From the NCBI GenBank assembly GCA_015064955.1, contig SVRD01000018.1:1-36209 (forward strand): DNA of 36,209 nt, in the 5' to 3' direction. The stretch's first letter is position 1, and the number at the start of each line of letters is the position of its first letter. Positions 26,797 through 36,209 of this stretch are shown here, one piece after another. Source of the stretch: Oscillospiraceae bacterium. GTDB lineage: Bacteria > Bacillota > Clostridia > Oscillospirales > CAG-382. The notes beneath the pieces are model-generated. The model saw only the letters and a program-made list of their open reading frames with translations, was not told where the DNA came from and ran no database searches. The position numbers and the translations under genes are program-made.

Positions 26797-27501
26797 TCAT
26801 TTCGCAGTTATCATATTTTTCAGCTCTCTCACCGCGTCGCCCAGCCCGCCGACAGAATCTATAATGCCGTATTTTACCGCCTCGCTCCCGTCGATAACCG
26901 TTCCGATGTCGGTCGTCATATCGTCGGTTGCCGTCATCAGCTTGCGAACCGTTTCGCTGTCGGCGCGCGAATTTCTCACAATAAAATCAATAATTCGTTC
27001 CTGCATTTTTGAAAGGTTCGCAAAGGTCTGGGGCACGCCGATAACAAGCCCGTTCAAACGAACGGGGTGAAGCGTCATCGTTGCACTCGGTACGATAAAT
27101 GATTTTTTCGCCGATACCGCAAGCGGAACCCCGATCGAATGTCCGCCGCCCAAGACTATCGAAACAGTCGGCTTTGTCATTCCCGCAACAAGCTCGGCAA
27201 TCGCCAATCCCGCCTCGATATCGCCGCCGATCGTGTTCAGCAAAAGCAAAAGCCCGTCGATCTCGTCGCTTTCCTCGACTGCAACAAGTGTCGGGATACA
27301 TTGTTCGTATTTTGTCGATTTGCTTTGCGGCGCTGCGGCAAAATGCCCCTCTATCTGCCCCGCAATAACCATCGAATGTATGCATATCCCGTTGCCGACG
27401 GTGGTAACACTTCCGCTTGCGGCGCACTCGCGCTCGGCTTCCCGCGCTTCTTCATCAAAGCATTCGTCTGTGCCGTTTGAGTATTTCTCGTTTGCTTTCA
27501 T
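26797..27501 (-). CDS. ClpP/TepA-family serine protease-like protein
   Basis: Crotonase-fold ClpP-like protein (234 aa), closest by pattern to the TepA/YlfB-type proteins found near spoIIIE/ftsK in Firmicutes. The nucleophile is S122 in GGGHSIGVPLA. The catalytic histidine is H145 in TMTLHPVR. The GGDIEAGLAIAELV helix and the C-terminal AVKYGIIDSVGG block are typical. The N-terminal 30 residues are acidic and unlike ClpP. AAGGAAAACGG precedes the ATG. No Clp ATPase or ftsK lies in the window, so its partner is unknown. Confidence 0.88.
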   Translation of the reverse strand: MKANEKYSNGTDECFDEEAREAERECAASGSVTTVGNGICIHSMVIAGQIEGHFAAAPQSKSTKYEQCIPTLVAVEESDEIDGLLLLLNTIGGDIEAGLAIAELVAGMTKPTVSIVLGGGHSIGVPLAVSAKKSFIVPSATMTLHPVRLNGLVIGVPQTFANLSKMQERIIDFIVRNSRADSETVRKLMTATDDMTTDIGTVIDGSEAVKYGIIDSVGGLGDAVRELKNMITAK

Positions 27502-27611
27502 ACCGTTTTCCTTTTTTATTATTAATTCGCATTTGTCCGATTTTTATTCAAAAGCATAAATTAACGGATTATGGTAAGGATAAAAAGAAAAATCAAAAAT
27601 CGGGTGATATT

Positions 27612-30600
27612 ATGCGAAAGCAATTAAAAAGAGCATACTCGGTCATAAAAAACAGCCTCGGCGACAGCGATATCTCGCCTTGGGTGAGCGACAATTTTTA
27701 TTGCATCGACAGATACTATCTCTCCTCGCTCAAGGATAAATATTCGCACAAATGCAAACGGCTGTTTTCGGTGATAAAGGACTGCTGTGAGGCACACGAC
27801 TGCTGTCCGACCGCTACTCAGCTCAGAGAGCGTATATCGGCGGAGCGTGTCGGGTTTTCTTATTATGAGCTTTGCTCGATAAGAAGCCTTGTCGCCGCAA
27901 GCGCGATAATCGCCATCGCAGAATGTGTAAAAAGCGGCAAAAGAGGTTATCTGCTCCCAAATGCAATAAAGCTTCTTCACAGTCTCGACGATACCGAATA
28001 CGACGATATGATACCGCTTCTCTGGCGCACCGAGGGTATAATTGCGAATTTCGAGGAGGATTACGACCGATTCGACCTGCCCACAAAGGCGGCATACCGC
28101 AGTGCGATCGCAAAAAGAGCTTTGTCAAGGCGGATAAGCGAATCTTCCGCAGCAAAGGAGCTTATAACGCTCGCAAGACAGAAAAAACTCCCGCTCGGCA
28201 AGCTTTTGTTTGTCCCGAAAACGAAATATGCGGTCTTGTGGCTCATGCTTTCTCTTTCGGTGTTTTTGCTTCTTTCGTTTTTTGCGCTTTACTTTGTCGG
28301 CGCGGTCGGAATATTGCTTTTGATTCCGTTCTGGATCGCCGCCTCGCAAATTGCCGACAGTGTTGTTTCGCTTGTGATCCCTCCGTTCTATGCGCCGAGG
28401 TATGCACTCGATAAGATTCCCGACAATGCAAAAACACTTGTCACAGTTGCGGCACTTATGTCGGGTGGCGACGGTGATAATCGTGTATTTGAATCGCTCG
28501 AGCGGTCGTATTGTATGAACCCCGAAAAAAATATCTATTATTGCCTGCTCGCCGACCTGCCCGATTCCGACACTGCCTATCTTTTGAGCGACAGCGCGGT
28601 GATAAACAATGCGCAAGCACGTATAGATGCGCTCAATCAACGCTACGGCGAGCGCTTTTGCCTCTTTTTCCGCGAGCGAAGCTACAATAAAAGCGAACAG
28701 CGCTACGGCGGATACGAGCGCAAGCGCGGCGCGGTGTGCGAGCTTGTCAGCCATATCGTAAAGGGCAAGCGCCACGAATATTACGGCGGCGATTTTATCC
28801 GCGATATCAAATATCTTTTGACTCTCGATTCCGACACAAATCTTTCGGTCGGCTCGGTTACCGAGCTCGTATCGGTCGCGCTTCACCCCGCAAACCGCCC
28901 GATTTTAAGAAATAATACCGTCGAAAGCGGCTACGGTATAATTCAGTCGACGGTGCGTACCGAGCTCAAGAGCGCATATAAGACGTCGTTCTCTCGCCTT
29001 ATAAGCGGTGCCGGCGGTACAGACGCCTATTCAAACGCAGCGTTTTCGCGCTCGCAATCGCTTGTCGGCTCGGGGAGCTTTTGCGGAAAGGGGCTTATCG
29101 ACGTTTCGCTGTTTTATTCGCTCGCGGTAAACAAACTGCCCGACGGTCTTGTACTTTCCCACGACGTGCTCGAGGGGCATCTTCTTAAAACTCTGGCAGT
29201 TACCGATATAACCCTTACCGATTCGACCCCCGCCAACGCTGTTTCGTTCTTCCGCAGACAGCACCGCTGGCTGAGGGGCGATTTTCAAAACCTGAATTTC
29301 CTTTTCGGCAAAATTTTTTCTCCTTTTGCAAAATTGCGTATACTCGTCACCGCAGTCAAGCATTTGTCGCCTGTTTTCGTGCTCGCTTCGCTTGTTTGGG
29401 GCGCGTTTTTAAAGGATACCGACGGTCTTTTGCTTTTTCTGCTCGCCTTTTCCGAGCTTTTGCTCCCCTTTGCCGTCGCAACAGTGCGCTTCTTGCTTTC
29501 GGGCTCGCCCTTTGCAGTCTTCCGATATTTTTCAAAAGCATCTGCCGAGCTCACCCAAAACCTTCTGCGAATCCTTTTCGAGATCATCTCGACCGCGCGC
29601 AAGGCTTTGCTTGCCGCGCACGCGCTCATACTCGCGGTGATAAGAAGCATTACAAGGAAAAAAACACTCGAATGGACCACCGCCGCCCAAGCCGAAAGGC
29701 TCTCGTCGTCGCTCGGTAAATATGTCATCGACGGCGCGCTAAGCTCGCTTGTCGGTCTGCTTCTTTTGGCTTTTGCCGGAGCGCCGTTTATAAAGCTTTG
29801 CGGATTGCTTTTCTTCATTTATCCGCTCGTGTCGCTCTTTCTTTCGAGAAGCGTCGGAGGCGGAGATATTTCGGAAATACGGCTCACAAAAAAGCAAAAC
29901 CGTCTTCTCACCGCCCACGTCGGCGATATGGTGCGCTTTTATACCGATAACGTCGGCGAAGCGACAAACCATCTCCCGCCCGACAATATCCAGCTCTCGC
30001 CGGTGAGCGATACCGCGATGCGAACCTCACCGACAAATATCGGCTTTTATCTCGTTTCGCTTCTCGCCGCTCGCGATTTCGGGCTTATCGACACCAAATT
30101 ACTCTGCGACCGAGCGGAGCGGTGTATAGAATCGGTCGAGAAAATGGAAAAATACCGCGGAAACCTTTATAATTGGTACGATTTGAACGATCTGTCGGTT
30201 ATCGGCGATCATTACGTTTCGGCGGTCGACAGCGGTAATTTCACAGTAATGCTCGAGGTCTTGAAAAACGGAATACCCGAATATGCCGATGAGGATACGC
30301 GCGTCGCCCCGATCGCCCGCCGTATCGAAGCGATAATATCGCAAACCGATCTCGGTGTATTTTACGATAAACGCAAATGCCTTTTCAGAATCGGGCTCAA
30401 CGGCAAGACCGAAAGAGCAGACGGAAGCTGCTATGATATGCTGATGAGCGAGGCGAGAATGACTGCCTATTATGCCGTCGCAAAGCATATCGTTCCGAAA
30501 CGCCATTGGCAGATGCTCGGCAGAACCCTCACTCACAAAAACGGATATATCGGAATGATGAGTTGGTCGGGCACTGCGTTTGAATACCTTATGCCGCTGT

Positions 30601-33600
30601 TGTTTTTGCCGCTCTACCGCGATTCCTTTATTTATGAAAGCGTCGCCTTTGCGCAGTCGGTGCAAAAAAGCAGACAGGGAGTTTGGGGAATAAGCGAAAG
30701 CGCATTTTATTCCTTCGACAGCGAAATGCATTATCAATACAAGGCAAACGGTATCCAGTCTCTCGCGCTCAGACGTGTTTCGGCGAACGAAAATATCGTT
30801 TCTCCCTATTCGACCTACCTTGCGCTTTGCATAAACGGCAGAGACGCTTTTAAGAATCTCACCGAGCTCGAAAACAAGGGTATGTACGGCAAATACGGAC
30901 TTTATGAGGCGCTCGATCTCAATAACGATTCCGAGGGAATATGTGTAAAAAGCTATATGGCGCACCATGTCGGTATGAGCATCATCGCCTGCGCCAATGC
31001 GGTCTTTAACAATATTTTCGTGCGTCGCTTTATGTCCGACCCGTTCATTTCGTCGGCGAGCGAGCTGTTGCAGGAAAAGATACCCACAAATACGCATATT
31101 TTCGATGAGCGCGTCGGCACAGCAGCAGAGGAAAAGCGAACCGCGCACACCGATTCGTCATCGCAAAAATTCGACCCGACCGACTGCGCACTGCTGAACC
31201 GCGGTGATATGACCGTGACTGTAAACGGACTCGGACATATCGGGATAATATGCGGCGAACGGATTGTTGCAAACACAAATTTCGACCCCGAATCACTCCG
31301 CTTCACCCCCGGAGTCGTGTTTTCACGGCAGGGCAGAGCATACGGCTGTGCGGGACTGTATGCCGGCGCGGACAGCAGCTTTGAAAAGAACGACAGATCG
31401 GTTTCTCATATCGTTTCGTCAAAGGAATTTTCGGGCAGGGTAAGATACAGTATGTCGAAAGTCAGTAATTGTCTGATCGTCAGCACTCGCGCCGAGGCGA
31501 TGAAGAAATACGATATCAGCCTTGTTTTTGAGCCGGTGCTCGAAAAGCAAAAAAGCTTTCTTGCCCATATTTCGTTTTCGAGACTGTTTATCGAAAGCGA
31601 ATACGACACAAAAAAGCGGATTCTATATTTCCATCGCAGAAGCCGTATCGACGGAAGCTATGTCTTTACTCTTGCTGTTGCCCCGCGCGACAGAGATATG
31701 GAATTTGAGTTTTCGTCAAGCCGCGAGAATATGGAAAGGACGTCCTTCGGCTCGCCGCTCGACTATGCTTTCGAAAAAACCGAAAACCGTGTCGGCGCGT
31801 GTATCGACCCGATCTGCCTTGTGCGCTCCTCGGGGTGCGACGGCGGGCGCGCCGTATTTTTGGTCACCTGCGCCGAAACCAAGGGCGAATGCGAAAAAAA
31901 TATTCGACTTGCGCGCTCGGACAAGCGCGAGCTTGGATTGCTGCCGCACGGCAGCATATTCAAATCTCTGCTTTCGTCGCTTCAATTCGGATCGGGGCCG
32001 AAGCCTACCGAATCGCTCACAAAAAGCAATATCGGCGACCTTTGGAGCAGGGGTATCTCGGGCGATCACCCTATTGCGCTCATCTCGCTTTCCGAGCGAG
32101 CGATAACCCGCACCGAGTCGGTTGTCAAATCGTTTGCCGAGCTTGCAAGGTGTATGATCAGATGCGAGCTTATCTTTGTCGTCTCCGACAGCGATAAGTA
32201 TAACCGCCCCGTCGAATCGTCGCTCCGCAGTATCTGCAGAGAGCAAAACCTGCTTCACTTTATCGGCAGAAACGGCGGGATCTTTATTCTTCGCCGCGAG
32301 TCGTTGAACGATGATTTTTATAAAACACTTGTTAATTCCGCCTGCTATTTCGCCGATTTTTATAACGATACTCTACGCCAATCCCTCGCAATCGGTCAAC
32401 CGATACCGATAATCGAATCGGCAGAAAGCAATTTGCCGATAACCGTTCCCGACGGAGCGGTAAGGGCGGGCAACGGATATTTTATCGGCGATTGCTATAC
32501 CGTCGACAAAAGCAAGAAAGCAAAGCTGCCCTATTCTTTTGTGCTGACGGGAAAGCGGTTTTCTTCGGTTATTACCCAATCAAGCCTTGGCTATACCTTT
32601 TACGACAACGCGCGCGAATGCAGAATCGGCTCGTTCTACGGCGATATCGGCTCGCTCGATAACGGCGAAAGACTGTTTTTGTACCGCGACGGTAAAAAAT
32701 ACGACCTCTGCGCCGTCTCGCATAAGGTCGAATATAAAAAGGGCTTTGCCGTCTATTCGGGCGGGATCGACGGCATTGAATACAGCGTGACCGTTACTGT
32801 TCACCCGAAATTCCCGATAAAGCTTATAAGAGTGCGCTATAAGGATTCCGCCCGTGTGAAAAGTGTTTTTTCGGTCAATGCCGTAATGGGCGACAGCGCA
32901 CGTGCAATCAATTCGCTCGGATTTACCCGGAACGAAATCAACGGGAATTCGCTTCTTGTTTTCAAAAATAACTTCGGCACGACTTTTTCCGAGGGCTTCG
33001 GATTTATGGGCGTGTGCGGAGCAGGTGCTTGGGAGAACGGATTGGAGCTTCGGTCCGATTCGTGCGATGCTTTGTTCTTCCTCGGTGCCTGCACGACCGA
33101 AAACGCCGTGCGCGAGATCGCCGCGCGTGTGAATCACTCCTTTTTCGATGAATCGCTTTCAATGGCGGAGGCAAACGCCTGCGCGATGATACCGCACTTC
33201 GATTTCAGGACAAAAAGCATTTCAAACGATATTCTGATGCGGTTTTTCCTGCCCTATCAGGTTGCCGCCTGCCGATTCTATGCGCGAGGCTCGTTTTATC
33301 AAAGCGGCGGCGCATACGGCTTCCGCGATCAGCTTCAGGATTGCCTCACACTCGTCTATGCCGATCCGAAAGCAGTCAGAACTCATATAATCCGCTGCTG
33401 TGCACATCAATACCTCGACGGAAGCGTTATGCATTGGTGGCATACCCGCCACAAAAACGGCGTGAACGCGGGGATAAGGAGTAAATGCTCCGACGATCTG
33501 CTTTATCTTCCGTTGGTGGTTGCCGATTATATCGAAAAAACAGGCGACAGGGAAGTGCTTTCGCTCAACGTGCGCTATCTCACCTCGTCGCCCCTCGGTG

Positions 33601-34649
33601 CAAGCGGCGAACGCTACGAATACCCCGAGCTCAGCGACGTTAGCGAGAGCATCTACCGCCACTGCCTGCGTGCGCTTGCCTGCGCCGAGCGCAAGGGTAA
33701 AAACGGCTTGATCCTTATGGGAAGCTGTGATTGGAACGATGCCTTTTCGCTTGTCGGCGAGAGGGGAATCGGCGAAAGCGTTTTTTCGAGCCTGCTGTTT
33801 GTCATCTCGGCAGAGGCGTTTATGCGCGTCGCCGAGGGATTTAACGATAAGGAAACGGTAGAGCATTATCGTGAATCGGTCGGGAAAATCAGACAGTCGG
33901 TCGAAAATTGCGCCTTTTACGGCGACAGATATGCCCGCGCGTTCTGCGACGACGGCGAAATACTCGGTATCGATCAAAGCGAGGAATGCAAGCTCGATAT
34001 CCTTTCCCAATCCTTCGCCGCGCTTGCAAATCTCGATGAACAGCGAACAAAAACCGCACTGACAACCGCATTCAAGGGTCTTTACGACCCGCAAAACCGG
34101 ATTTTCAAGCTGTTTTCGCCTCCCTTTTCAAACGGCAGGGCGCGCGTCGGCTATATCCGCGGATACGTAAAGGGTATCCGCGAAAACGGCGGACAGTATT
34201 CCCACGGCGCACTTTGGGGCGCGCTCGGATTTCTTCGCGCCGGTATGGTGGAGGAGGCACTGCTTGTTCTCGATTGTGTCAATCCCATCTCGCGCCATTT
34301 CGATAAATCACTCTCGCAAAAATACAAAGCCGAGCCCTATGCCGTCGCCGCCGATATCTATTCGGGCGACTTTGCGGGCAGGGGCGGCTGGAGCTGGTAT
34401 ACCGGCGCGGCATCGTGGTATTACCGTATAATGCTCGAATACGTTCTCGGATTGAAGCTCGGCGCAAACGGCACATTGATCTCCGCCTGCCCGAGAATCG
34501 AGTTCGAGGGCGAGCTCGAATTAAACGGCAAGCGTCTTTTCGTCACTGCCTCGCGCGAGAACGAAACAGCGCTTTTTAACGGCGCCGAGGCTGTCTTTCC
34601 GCTCGTGCTCGAGTCACCCGAAAACACTCTTTTTCTCCCCGTTAAATAA
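27612..34649 (+). CDS. Cyclic beta-1,2-glucan synthase-like protein (GT84 + GH94)
   Basis: Giant membrane enzyme of 2,345 aa, shorter than the about 2,800-2,900 of the rhizobial NdvB/ChvB/Cgs proteins. Membrane segments lie at about 205-248. A family-2-like glycosyltransferase domain has DSD near 404 and the acceptor motif QHRWLRGD near 549. More membrane segments lie at about 576-633 and 702-745. A glucoamylase-like (DUF3131-type) domain covers about 790-1160, and GH94 sandwich and catalytic domains run from about 1200 to the end, with the catalytic region GSCDWNDA near 2036-2042. In related enzymes the GH94 part controls chain length by phosphorolysis. The ATG at 27612 has GGGTGAT upstream; the longer frame overlaps the divergent protease gene. 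The product is presumably a linear or cyclic beta-1,2-glucan. Confidence 0.92.
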   Translation: MRKQLKRAYSVIKNSLGDSDISPWVSDNFYCIDRYYLSSLKDKYSHKCKRLFSVIKDCCEAHDCCPTATQLRERISAERVGFSYYELCSIRSLVAASAIIAIAECVKSGKRGYLLPNAIKLLHSLDDTEYDDMIPLLWRTEGIIANFEEDYDRFDLPTKAAYRSAIAKRALSRRISESSAAKELITLARQKKLPLGKLLFVPKTKYAVLWLMLSLSVFLLLSFFALYFVGAVGILLLIPFWIAASQIADSVVSLVIPPFYAPRYALDKIPDNAKTLVTVAALMSGGDGDNRVFESLERSYCMNPEKNIYYCLLADLPDSDTAYLLSDSAVINNAQARIDALNQRYGERFCLFFRERSYNKSEQRYGGYERKRGAVCELVSHIVKGKRHEYYGGDFIRDIKYLLTLDSDTNLSVGSVTELVSVALHPANRPILRNNTVESGYGIIQSTVRTELKSAYKTSFSRLISGAGGTDAYSNAAFSRSQSLVGSGSFCGKGLIDVSLFYSLAVNKLPDGLVLSHDVLEGHLLKTLAVTDITLTDSTPANAVSFFRRQHRWLRGDFQNLNFLFGKIFSPFAKLRILVTAVKHLSPVFVLASLVWGAFLKDTDGLLLFLLAFSELLLPFAVATVRFLLSGSPFAVFRYFSKASAELTQNLLRILFEIISTARKALLAAHALILAVIRSITRKKTLEWTTAAQAERLSSSLGKYVIDGALSSLVGLLLLAFAGAPFIKLCGLLFFIYPLVSLFLSRSVGGGDISEIRLTKKQNRLLTAHVGDMVRFYTDNVGEATNHLPPDNIQLSPVSDTAMRTSPTNIGFYLVSLLAARDFGLIDTKLLCDRAERCIESVEKMEKYRGNLYNWYDLNDLSVIGDHYVSAVDSGNFTVMLEVLKNGIPEYADEDTRVAPIARRIEAIISQTDLGVFYDKRKCLFRIGLNGKTERADGSCYDMLMSEARMTAYYAVAKHIVPKRHWQMLGRTLTHKNGYIGMMSWSGTAFEYLMPLLFLPLYRDSFIYESVAFAQSVQKSRQGVWGISESAFYSFDSEMHYQYKANGIQSLALRRVSANENIVSPYSTYLALCINGRDAFKNLTELENKGMYGKYGLYEALDLNNDSEGICVKSYMAHHVGMSIIACANAVFNNIFVRRFMSDPFISSASELLQEKIPTNTHIFDERVGTAAEEKRTAHTDSSSQKFDPTDCALLNRGDMTVTVNGLGHIGIICGERIVANTNFDPESLRFTPGVVFSRQGRAYGCAGLYAGADSSFEKNDRSVSHIVSSKEFSGRVRYSMSKVSNCLIVSTRAEAMKKYDISLVFEPVLEKQKSFLAHISFSRLFIESEYDTKKRILYFHRRSRIDGSYVFTLAVAPRDRDMEFEFSSSRENMERTSFGSPLDYAFEKTENRVGACIDPICLVRSSGCDGGRAVFLVTCAETKGECEKNIRLARSDKRELGLLPHGSIFKSLLSSLQFGSGPKPTESLTKSNIGDLWSRGISGDHPIALISLSERAITRTESVVKSFAELARCMIRCELIFVVSDSDKYNRPVESSLRSICREQNLLHFIGRNGGIFILRRESLNDDFYKTLVNSACYFADFYNDTLRQSLAIGQPIPIIESAESNLPITVPDGAVRAGNGYFIGDCYTVDKSKKAKLPYSFVLTGKRFSSVITQSSLGYTFYDNARECRIGSFYGDIGSLDNGERLFLYRDGKKYDLCAVSHKVEYKKGFAVYSGGIDGIEYSVTVTVHPKFPIKLIRVRYKDSARVKSVFSVNAVMGDSARAINSLGFTRNEINGNSLLVFKNNFGTTFSEGFGFMGVCGAGAWENGLELRSDSCDALFFLGACTTENAVREIAARVNHSFFDESLSMAEANACAMIPHFDFRTKSISNDILMRFFLPYQVAACRFYARGSFYQSGGAYGFRDQLQDCLTLVYADPKAVRTHIIRCCAHQYLDGSVMHWWHTRHKNGVNAGIRSKCSDDLLYLPLVVADYIEKTGDREVLSLNVRYLTSSPLGASGERYEYPELSDVSESIYRHCLRALACAERKGKNGLILMGSCDWNDAFSLVGERGIGESVFSSLLFVISAEAFMRVAEGFNDKETVEHYRESVGKIRQSVENCAFYGDRYARAFCDDGEILGIDQSEECKLDILSQSFAALANLDEQRTKTALTTAFKGLYDPQNRIFKLFSPPFSNGRARVGYIRGYVKGIRENGGQYSHGALWGALGFLRAGMVEEALLVLDCVNPISRHFDKSLSQKYKAEPYAVAADIYSGDFAGRGGWSWYTGAASWYYRIMLEYVLGLKLGANGTLISACPRIEFEGELELNGKRLFVTASRENETALFNGAEAVFPLVLESPENTLFLPVK

Positions 34650-35059: not shown

Positions 35060-35120
35060 CAATCAAACCTATGACAAAAAAGAAAAAAGCCCAAAATCAT
35101 AACTATTTTCAAAAAAACTG

Positions 35121-35149
35121 TTGCAAAAACCGAATTGTCGTGATACAAT
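35121..35149 (+). promoter_or_regulatory. Extended -10 promoter in front of the tRNA-Ser-derived array
   Basis: TTGCAA at 35121-35126, 17-bp spacer, TACAAT at 35144-35149 preceded by TGA. Predicted start near 35156. It is the only good plus-strand promoter I find between here and the intact tRNA at 36103, so a precursor of about 1 kb covering every tRNA half may be made. Confidence 0.75.
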
Positions 35150-35167
35150 ATACCTCGCGGCATAAAT

Positions 35168-35204
35168 CACCGCAACAGTACAAAGGCGGGGCGTAGACCC
35201 GTCG
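35168..35204 (+). repeat. Most degenerate unit end of the tRNA-Ser array
   Basis: The 25 bases at 35168-35192 match 35368-35392 at 23 positions (both contain CACCGCAACAG and AGGCGGGGC), exactly 200 bp apart. The following CGTAGACCCGTCGAAAG keeps only the TCGAAA of the anticodon loop. I read it as a decayed first unit; this is the least certain member. Confidence 0.5.
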
Positions 35205-35252
35205 AAAGTACCTTTCAAAAGAGAATATAACTAAAAATTCAATATAAACTAT

Positions 35253-35402
35253 GCAGAGGTATCGAAGCGGGGACGTCGCCGAGCGCCGCCGGTGGCGGAA
35301 ACAGCGAGGCGTAAGGAGTGGCAGCGGTCGAAATTTTGTGAGCGTTTAGCGAGCGAAAAATTTCGGGCACCGCAACAGGACATAGGCGGGGCTGACTCGA
35401 AA
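35253..35402 (+). pseudogene. tRNA-Ser(CGA) 5' half, interrupted in the D-loop
   Basis: GCAGAGGTATCGAAGCGG (35253-35270) has the same acceptor strand as the intact tRNA at 36103. The sequence resumes at about 35378-35402 with a D-loop-like GGACATAGG and CGGGGCTGACTCGAAA, ending at the anticodon-loop boundary. The intervening about 107 bp is GC-rich, with an arm pair GAAATTTT/AAAATTTC near 35330-35364 and a CGCC/GGCG hairpin near 35283-35297. No 3' half follows, so it cannot make a tRNA. Confidence 0.7.
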
Positions 35403-35550
35403 GGTAGCCGAGCTTATCACTCACGAGAACGCAAAATCTCGCGTATTCTTCGATTTCCTCGCAAATGCTTCATTTTTCTTGAATTTTGGATGAATGCATT
35501 TCACCATCGGCCTTGCAAAAGCCGTGCAAAATTCAAACACAATCGAATAC
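35403..35550. repeat. Array unit body 1 (148 bp)
   Basis: Non-coding body, identical in length to body 2 at 35591-35738, with about 14 mismatches in 148. Shared landmarks are GGTAGCCGAG, CACGAGAACGCAAAATCTCG, a CGGCCTTGCAAAAGCCG inverted repeat and the end CACAATCGAATAC. Confidence 0.85.
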
Positions 35551-35590
35551 GGAGAGATATCGAAGTGGTCATAACGGGGCTGACTCGAAA
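35551..35590 (+). pseudogene. tRNA-Ser(CGA) 5' half, copy beta (40 nt)
   Basis: It begins GGAGAGATATCGAAGTGG and ends GGCTGACTCGAAA, matching 37 of 40 bases of the intact tRNA's first 40. The match stops at the last base of the anticodon loop. The acceptor GGAGAGA is the common tRNA-Ser form and would not pair with the 3' strand CCTCTGC present at the array end. Confidence 0.85.
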
Positions 35591-35738
35591 GGTAGCCGAG
35601 TTTATCACTCACGAGAACGCAAAATCTCGCGTTTTCTCGCAATATCTCCCAAATGCTTCATTTTTCTTGAATTTTGAGTGAACGCATTTTAACATCGGCC
35701 TTGCAAAAGCCGTGCAAAATTCAAACACAATCGAATAC
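35591..35738. repeat. Array unit body 2 (148 bp)
   Basis: Second copy of the 148-bp body (see 35403-35550). The last 50 bases, from CATCGGCC to CGAATAC, are identical in the two copies. Confidence 0.85.
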
Positions 35739-35778
35739 GGAGAGATATCGAAGTGGTCATAACGGGGCTGACTCGAAA
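35739..35778 (+). pseudogene. tRNA-Ser(CGA) 5' half, copy gamma (40 nt)
   Basis: Base-for-base identical to copy beta, 188 bp away. It is followed by an unrelated body beginning TACTTTGGCT. Confidence 0.85.
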
Positions 35779-35910
35779 TACTTTGGCTTACTTTTGAGTA
35801 CCCCTTCAAAAACCGCTTGATATAAGGGTTTTTGAGCATCTGTTTTGCAAACAGATATTTTGTCTAATGGTTTATCTAATGATTTTGCCACGACTAACAC
35901 AGTTAAATAC
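35779..35910. other. Array unit body 3, unrelated AT-rich sequence
   Basis: A body of 132 bp with no gene and no similarity to bodies 1 and 2 except the last bases AAATAC. It has a small inverted repeat ATCTGTTTTGCAAACAGAT near 35839 and an extended -10-like TGATATAAG near 35818-35826 without a -35. Confidence 0.6.
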
Positions 35911-35950
35911 GGAGTGATATCGAAGTGGTCATAACGGGCCTGACTCGAAA
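35911..35950 (+). pseudogene. tRNA-Ser(CGA) 5' half, copy delta (40 nt)
   Basis: It begins GGAGTGATATCGAAGTGG and matches 35 of 40 bases of the intact tRNA. It has a changed acceptor base and an anticodon-stem change (GGGCC for GGGGC). The similarity again ends with CTCGAAA. Confidence 0.82.
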
Positions 35951-36102
35951 GACTCTGACTCATTTGGAAGTTCTAACAGCAACTTTCTTTGAAACAAGCG
36001 GATTTTCCCGACTTGAAATTTTTTCAAAAGTATCATTCCTTATTTAACCTAATCTACAATCTAATCTTTTTTTGAAACGCATTTTAGTGTTTCACCCTAC
36101 AC
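35951..36102. other. Array unit body 4, unrelated AT-rich sequence
   Basis: A body of 152 bp without a gene. It has an inverted repeat TTGAAATTTTTTCAA near 36013-36027. I find no convincing promoter immediately before the intact tRNA. Confidence 0.6.
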
Positions 36103-36194
36103 GCAGAGGTATCGAAGGGGTCATAACGGGGCTGACTCGAAATCAGTTTGCGGCTTAAAACCGCACGAGGGTTCGAATCCCTCCCTCTGCGCCA
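36103..36194 (+). tRNA. tRNA-Ser, anticodon CGA
   Basis: 92-nt tRNA with encoded CCA. Acceptor GCAGAGG / CCTCTGC, discriminator G. Anticodon stem GCTGA/TCAGT with loop CTCGAAA, anticodon CGA at 36138-36140. The long variable arm is GCGG-CTTAAAA-CCGC, typical of tRNA-Ser, and the T arm GAGGG-TTCGAAT-CCCTC. It is the only complete member of the array; the three non-interrupted partial copies upstream match only its first 40 nt. Confidence 0.95.
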
Positions 36195-36209
36195 TCAAAG
36201 GGCAATGAA

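Follow-up and report, generated by a model that had tools for sequence, protein, structure and literature searches.

Tandem 5′ halves of tRNA-Ser(CGA) in Clostridia as a probable record of serial, nested integration of islands at the anticodon loop

When elements integrate repeatedly at the same att site, a series of att sites results, as in CIMEs and in the tandem accretion of ICE-related elements. For mycobacteriophage Fionnbharth and its relatives, the original article describes a tRNA-dependent lysogeny, in which attB lies inside a tRNA gene, a tyrosine integrase acts on a common core of 8–10 bp and the tRNA gene is not rebuilt, the phage tRNA having its own tested promoter and overlapping gene 37 (PMC10865867). 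The Lactobacillus johnsonii prophage Lj965 is mentioned alongside this mechanism in the same article, and a second article states that its own group reported the mechanism in Sinorhizobium prophages (PMC12429752), so that tRNA-dependent lysogeny is not confined to actinobacteriophages. For genomic islands, the Islander article gives a 5′ tDNA fragment in 159 of 3919 islands and a model in which a single fragment is displaced while the gene is restored by the island, candidates smaller than 2 kb or without an integrase being filtered out (PMC4383910). Moreover, tRNA fragments left by integration are treated in general terms in another article (PMC9897764). A description of arrays such as the one presented here was not found among the titles and abstract openings listed from the open-licence literature.

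The window, i.e., the whole stretch of DNA that was analysed, is the entire contig C23 (36,209 bp) of the Oscillospiraceae genome G000, which is 82% complete and 1.76 Mb in size. Near its right end, a first-pass annotation made from the letters alone had described tRNA-Ser(CGA) 5′ halves in tandem, closed by one intact tRNA. This array is real, and the coordinates and spacings given for it hold (Table 1). The intact tRNA-Ser(CGA) is called by ARAGORN and matches Rfam RF00005 with 50.1 bits, and the three 40-nt halves show 94–95% identity to its 5′ half over the aligned part. All four halves end at the anticodon loop CTCGAAA, the loop ends being spaced by 188, 188, 172 and 192 bp; this includes the first half, which carries an insert at about 35271–35378. 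Bodies 1 and 2 are duplicates, as had been stated, with 93% identity over a 188-bp repeat, and for bodies 3 and 4 the repeat finder returned no alignment to them. The statement that the array holds no protein gene was borne out as well, one unsupported open reading frame of 129 aa being all that was seen. The pattern GGGGCTGACTCGAAAV occurs twice in the window compared to 0.00 occurrences expected from 100 shuffles. The copy that had been called decayed, at about 35168–35204, is indeed an older piece, yet it is better described as the truncated end of a D-loop-insert half (25-nt repeat, 92%) which has no anticodon loop; a counterpart of this remnant was seen by eye in the relatives G018 and G005.

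Table 1. Features of the array at the right end of the window (positions in bp).
Feature	Position	Strand	Basis
Putative native promoter of the tRNA locus (TTGCAA, 17 bp, TACAAT)	35121–35149	+	sequence, promoter score
Older remnant, comprising the end of a D-loop-insert half (no anticodon loop) and leader	35168–35252	+	repeat
Orphan 5′ half 1, acceptor GCAGAGG, D-loop interrupted by dispersed repeat	35253–35402	+	
Body 1, GGTAGCC family, read as island left end	35403–35550	+	repeat, L143 comparison
Orphan 5′ half 2, GGAGAGA, taken as the 5′ portion of the island 1 tRNA	35551–35590	+	
Body 2, GGTAGCC family	35591–35738	+	repeat comparison
Orphan 5′ half 3, GGAGAGA	35739–35778	+	repeat and pairing analysis
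Body 3, read as island left end, arm-like direct repeats	35779–35910	+	
Orphan 5′ half 4, GGAGTGA	35911–35950	+	repeat and pairing analysis
Body 4, read as left end of the innermost (latest) island	35951–36102	+	
Intact tRNA-Ser(CGA), GCAGAGG/CCTCTGC, read as tRNA of the innermost island	36103–36194	+	ARAGORN, Rfam
CTCGAAA in the intact tRNA, proposed crossover and next attB	36136–36142	+	
Contig end, 15 bp past the tRNA	36195–36209	.	

The D-loop insert (35271–35378) is a dispersed repeat of about 108 bp, for which the window copy gave no Rfam match at E values up to 1. Two further copies are present in the window genome (G000:C4:8291-8394 and G000:C6:71244-71346), one of them just upstream of the tRNA-Ser(UGA) gene that this genome also encodes, and the repeat occurs at 24 places on a replicon of Vescimonas fastidiosa (L280). 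An open reading frame of 2410 aa at 27417–34649 adjoins the array.

Such arrays are widespread in Clostridia. A half followed by a non-tRNA continuation was found in at least 117 stretches of reference genomes, and the titles among the matches listed mostly name Clostridia or its families, next to one from Bacilli and some that read only "bacterium". The pattern is not peculiar to one assembly, as it is also present in named-strain records and in the one-contig genome G044; examples are Flavonifractor sp. An10, Sinanaerobacter chloroacetimidivorans BAD-6, Eubacterium coprostanoligenes ATCC 51222 and Merdimmobilis hominis An559. Within 450 bp after an orphan half, a next half or a tRNA-Ser follows in 103 of the 104 cases with enough downstream sequence, at a spacing of 165–214 bp in 93, 78–89 bp in five and 347–378 bp in five of them, after 40 orphans near the end of the stored stretch, which is not always a contig end, had been dropped from this count. 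Some genomes are present in two collections (e.g., G035/L106), and identical units or tRNAs were removed prior to counting, which left 98 distinct units in 37 body families, 86 of these units being 169–214 bp long. Array content varies by eye among species of one genus at apparently the same locus.

The GGTAGCC body of the window was found in 13 of 295 genomes of the order and in nine of 148 genera, three of the 13 being short weak matches, and another body was found beyond the order (14 of 391 genomes), with two strong cases in G420 and G609. The bodies carry direct repeats like those of attP arms, with 7.45 of 8 matches in 31 family representatives versus 5.55–5.94 in ten shuffles. These repeats begin 81–91 nt from the crossover in 21 of the 31 representatives and resemble the arm sites of phage attPs in L195, L202 and L203. 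In the bodies with TCTTCTTCG, a hairpin lies directly before the tRNA 5′ half (A1 columns 123–147), and five of its stem pairs are altered on both sides in three of eight sequences.

Next to the anatomy of the arrays, the pairing of the acceptor stems was compared. In 80 arrays the intact tRNA passed a 6-of-7 acceptor filter, using the best of four 3′ offsets, and the intact acceptor pairs with itself at 7/7 in all of these 80 filtered arrays. The 102 orphan 5′ halves reach a mean of 5.72 pairs with the 3′ half of the intact tRNA (34 perfect, 26 with six pairs and 42 with five or fewer), which is slightly higher than with random 3′ halves (mean 5.47, maximum 5.67 over 200 draws). As this pairing is barely above random, orphan and intact genes are mostly different tRNAs, and at several loci the two derive from different tRNA-Ser(CGA) lineages. 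At least two orphan halves are present in 18 arrays of this set of 80.

If an island splits a tRNA gene and brings a whole one, the old 3′ half is expected at the far end of the island and should pair with the orphan 5′ half. The first case of this kind is G035, where the orphan reads GGAGAGG, the intact tRNA GGAGGGT/ACCCTCC with an integrase just behind it, and a displaced 3′ half with the acceptor CCTCTCC lies about 92 kb downstream. The 3′ half was searched in 64 genomes, i.e., in 63 array-bearing genomes, two of which gave no match, and in G021; all listed places were inspected, intact tRNAs were set aside and 56 additional places were included. This resulted in 27 displaced 3′ halves beginning at CTCGAAA in 26 of the 64 genomes, while none was found in the other 38. 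Since similarity in the displaced halves starts at CTCGAAA, the crossover overlap is taken as the seven-base anticodon loop. Of the 27, 23 are informative, as their acceptor is not the one found in the intact tRNA. Among these 23, 20 form all seven pairs (7/7) with an orphan 5′ half from their own genome, 17 of them without a G-U pair, whereas 5000 permutations gave 4.9 such pairings on average and 12 at most. A 7/7 pairing with the intact 5′ half is shown by two of the 23, and the exceptions to the orphan pairing are G726 (2/7), G696 (6/7) and the inner 3′ half of G693 (4/7). When matches to the T-arm only are left out, 25 displaced 3′ halves remain and 20 of the 21 informative ones are paired. 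The tRNA is thus rebuilt at neither junction, as both halves are displaced and, in these 20 cases, pair with each other.

In nine genomes the displaced 3′ half lies downstream of the array on the same contig and strand, at distances of 3–102 kb, namely about 3 kb in G714, 8 kb in G021, 15 kb in G706, 15.5 kb in G694, 18 kb in G696, 25 kb in G688, 26 kb in G728, 92 kb in G035 and 102 kb in G693 (Flavonifractor sp. An10), G021 and G706 being uninformative for pairing. Most of the 27 are on contigs other than that of the array. In the flanking sequence alone, a matching 3′ half was seen only in G021 and G006, besides one match of a different tRNA type. The islands L063 and L064 have a displaced 3′ half about 9–10 kb downstream of an intact tRNA-Ser(CGA), starting from the same anticodon loop, and have no 5′ half upstream of that tRNA.

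Of the 61 arrays whose sequence continues for at least 600 bp after the tRNA, 31 have an integrase open reading frame no more than 2.5 kb downstream of it, as judged with a search profile that included the integrases of two arrays from the counted set, and none was found within this distance in the other 30. It is on the opposite strand in 31 of 31 cases and within 430 bp in 26, whereas tRNA-Ser(CGA) genes without an orphan half have such an open reading frame in 5 of 23 cases. PF00589 was detected in L379, in L381 and in G035 at 42975–43550. The whole tRNA-Ser(CGA) sits about 150 bp inside the left end of the island, and in L143 an intact tRNA and an integrase open reading frame come after a body of the GGTAGCC family. 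In the 15.5-kb island of G694, for example, the integrase beside the tRNA is accompanied by genes for transporters and metabolism, and an excisionase-like HTH protein is encoded close to the right end; similarly, the 25-kb island of G688 encodes an integrase beside the tRNA, ParB and a Dnd-like cluster as well as, close to its right end, an excisionase-like protein which scores below the curated cut-off. The DndB-like, PAPS-reductase-domain and AAA_23 genes of G688 (L380/L381) resemble a DNA phosphorothioation cluster. A Pfam scan of 20 open reading frames from G694 and G688 detected no phage structural domains.

A tRNA-Ser(CGA) 5′ half was also seen in an attP-like site of phage-like contigs of IMG/VR (L195, L196, L202, L203 and L201/L198), adjoined by a tyrosine integrase in those checked (L196, L201 and L203); L201 and L198 look like the attP and attR forms of nearly one phage. 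The L201-type integrase was considered as mobiliser and rejected, being present in 17 of 295 genomes with a half nearby at 0 of 18 loci. Classical islands that duplicate the 3′ half were likewise rejected as the cause of the arrays; they occur at the same gene in G006 and G002, with no 5′ half before the tRNA. The arm repeat GTTCTCTCC gave two matches in viral contigs, neither with a tRNA half.

The comparison between genomes shows the crossover site, a replacement tRNA that is whole, an integrase close by and displaced 3′ halves whose acceptors match those of orphans, and it suggests, with a probability of about 0.8, that the array arose by serial, nested integration of islands at tRNA-Ser(CGA). 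A tyrosine integrase of the island would recombine attP with the 7-bp anticodon loop CTCGAAA and thereby split the gene, so that the left side would keep the 5′ half and the native promoter and the 3′ half would be moved to the far right end of the island. The gene would not be rebuilt, as the island would carry a complete tRNA-Ser(CGA) about 150 bp inside its left end, followed by the integrase gene reading toward the tRNA. This island tRNA, which has no recognisable promoter and would come to lie about 190 bp downstream of the old tRNA start, would probably be expressed by read-through from the old promoter and would also be a fresh attB for the next island, which would leave another 5′ half. 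The window would record at least four such integrations. The suggestion that the array consists of remnants of several integrations was thus right in kind, each half marking one integration at the anticodon loop.

Read-through is in line with the promoter scores, which have a median of 10.7 upstream of arrays (n=128) and of 6.6 in bodies (n=80; p=1e-10). In the window, the stretch 35060–35160 scores 11.4 and bodies 1–4 score 6.35, 10.5, 8.58 and 7.14; a score of at least 11 is reached in 6 of 87 bodies, and sites resembling the window promoter are also found upstream of arrays in relatives. An own promoter, which has been shown for the Fionnbharth tRNA but does not belong to the definition of tRNA-dependent lysogeny given in the abstract of that article, was not recognised in silico, the bodies scoring no better than shuffles. 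With a strong sigma70-like site upstream and weak ones in most bodies, transcription of the replacement tRNA probably starts at the promoter of the former tRNA gene. Terminator-like inverted repeats, which are present in many bodies, make such read-through less certain.

The simplest reading of the stacked halves is that each island entered the tRNA of the preceding island. In G693, a single contig carries an array and, after it, two displaced 3′ halves, which are located at 396.4 and 480.7 kb. The outer one pairs with the remaining orphan, and the inner one has no partner in the array, from which we infer that one unit was lost by recombination between halves, whereby its 5′ half was deleted. 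The inner 3′ half and the displaced half of G709 are preceded by the same 23 nt, and a left body is common to both genomes, so that one 18-kb island seems to be bounded at both ends in two genomes. An array with every partner half in nested order was not found among the genomes searched.

It had also been suggested that the repeats are small non-autonomous units, and gene-less mini-elements of about 190 bp that consist of an attP only, i.e., of a body and a 5′ half, and depend on integrases of phages or islands acting in trans would fit the narrow unit length, the similar bodies across families and orders, several of which are short weak matches, and the fact that three exact unit strings had no match in viral_contigs. 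Such elements would leave the resident 3′ half with the intact tRNA, and the first orphan should pair with it, but the mean is only 5.65 of 7. Most orphans do not pair in this way; their partner 3′ halves lie elsewhere in the same genomes, in nine of them downstream on the same contig, and the 20 of 23 pairings largely contradict mini-elements, as do the integrases near the tRNA. We therefore regard this explanation as improbable and read the units of about 190 bp as left ends of large islands that bring a tRNA. The same orphan pairing speaks against scars of phages that restore the 5′ half and were shrunk by deletion between attP arm repeats, which we consider very improbable. Contigs of suitable phage-like type do exist: L201 and L198 share 99.4% identity over the 3961 bp that lead up to the anticodon loop, beyond which they diverge into a P′ arm or a host 3′ half, and scars of 164–187 bp are calculated from the arm repeats of L195, L202 and L203. 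However, ARAGORN found no tRNA near those attPs, and whole tRNAs of other lineages, mismatched orphans and displaced 3′ halves would stay unexplained; moreover, such scars would favour 3′ halves that pair with the intact tRNA, and the opposite is seen in most cases.

A precursor RNA with tRNA-half modules had been proposed as a further explanation. Such an RNA may be produced, as the best promoter-like site is found ahead of the array, but no function is indicated. That the halves regulate or process the tRNA as parts of a functional leader RNA would fit a strong promoter-like site that lies upstream only in most arrays, as well as the compensatory changes at five stem pairs of the hairpin before the tRNA in one body family. 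We give this idea very little credence, since array content differs between species of the same genus and serial integration accounts for the anatomy unaided.

For the window itself, the model draws on the comparison with other genomes. The contig stops 15 bp past the tRNA, so that the islands of the window itself, which would lie or have lain beyond the contig end, are out of view; an integrase reading toward the tRNA is predicted there. A displaced 3′ half was not found in the 82% complete window genome, the two other matches being the intact tRNA-Ser(GGA) and tRNA-Ser(UGA). The islands of this strain may be unassembled, unbinned or already deleted, and in the latter case only their left ends and the needed tRNA may be left. 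The genome encodes one tyrosine recombinase of 329 aa, which is Xer-like by eye; no support was obtained for this resident recombinase as mobiliser.

In a wider sense, we lean slightly towards the view that tRNA-Ser(CGA) of gut Clostridia has been serially hijacked and is owned by islands, each newcomer destroying the resident copy, capturing the promoter for a promoterless replacement located in its attP region and in this way supplying the attachment site of its successor, the array being an ordered record of invasions with the oldest nearest to the promoter. Serial integration explains an odd array and offers a route to islands that are missed by tDNA screens for one fragment and a restored gene. 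It suggests that in many Clostridia a tRNA gene has repeatedly been replaced by island-borne copies, that the host is tied to the island and that the order of past integrations can be read from the array. Furthermore, tRNA-dependent integration, which has been described for phages, would be extended to islands and to a promoterless replacement tRNA.

In comparison to the known systems, the arrays share with tRNA-dependent lysogeny the tyrosine integrase, an attB in a tRNA, a short core (7 bp here) and a gene that is not rebuilt. Unlike in Fionnbharth, the tRNA of the Clostridia islands lies between core and integrase, seemingly has no promoter and is placed downstream of the host tRNA promoter; G694 and G688, as the two carriers that were examined, have islands without detected phage structural domains, and the replacement tRNA is apparently reused as attB, resulting in stacked halves. 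With the 5′-fragment islands of Islander, they share a 5′ tDNA fragment upstream of an intact tDNA and an anticodon-centred crossover, but here displacement affects both fragments, and a whole new gene takes the place of the old one, the intact tRNA being mostly a different gene and the displaced 3′ half matching the orphan. Similar to CIMEs and the accretion of ICEs, serial att sites arise from repeated integration at one site, but the elements would be nested within the tRNA of the previous element and not placed side by side. As a summary, tRNA-dependent integration is already known and is also reported or suspected outside actinobacteriophages; what seems new here is the promoterless-looking whole tRNA beside attP, its likely reuse as attachment site, the tandem halves as a record thereof and the class-wide spread of such islands.
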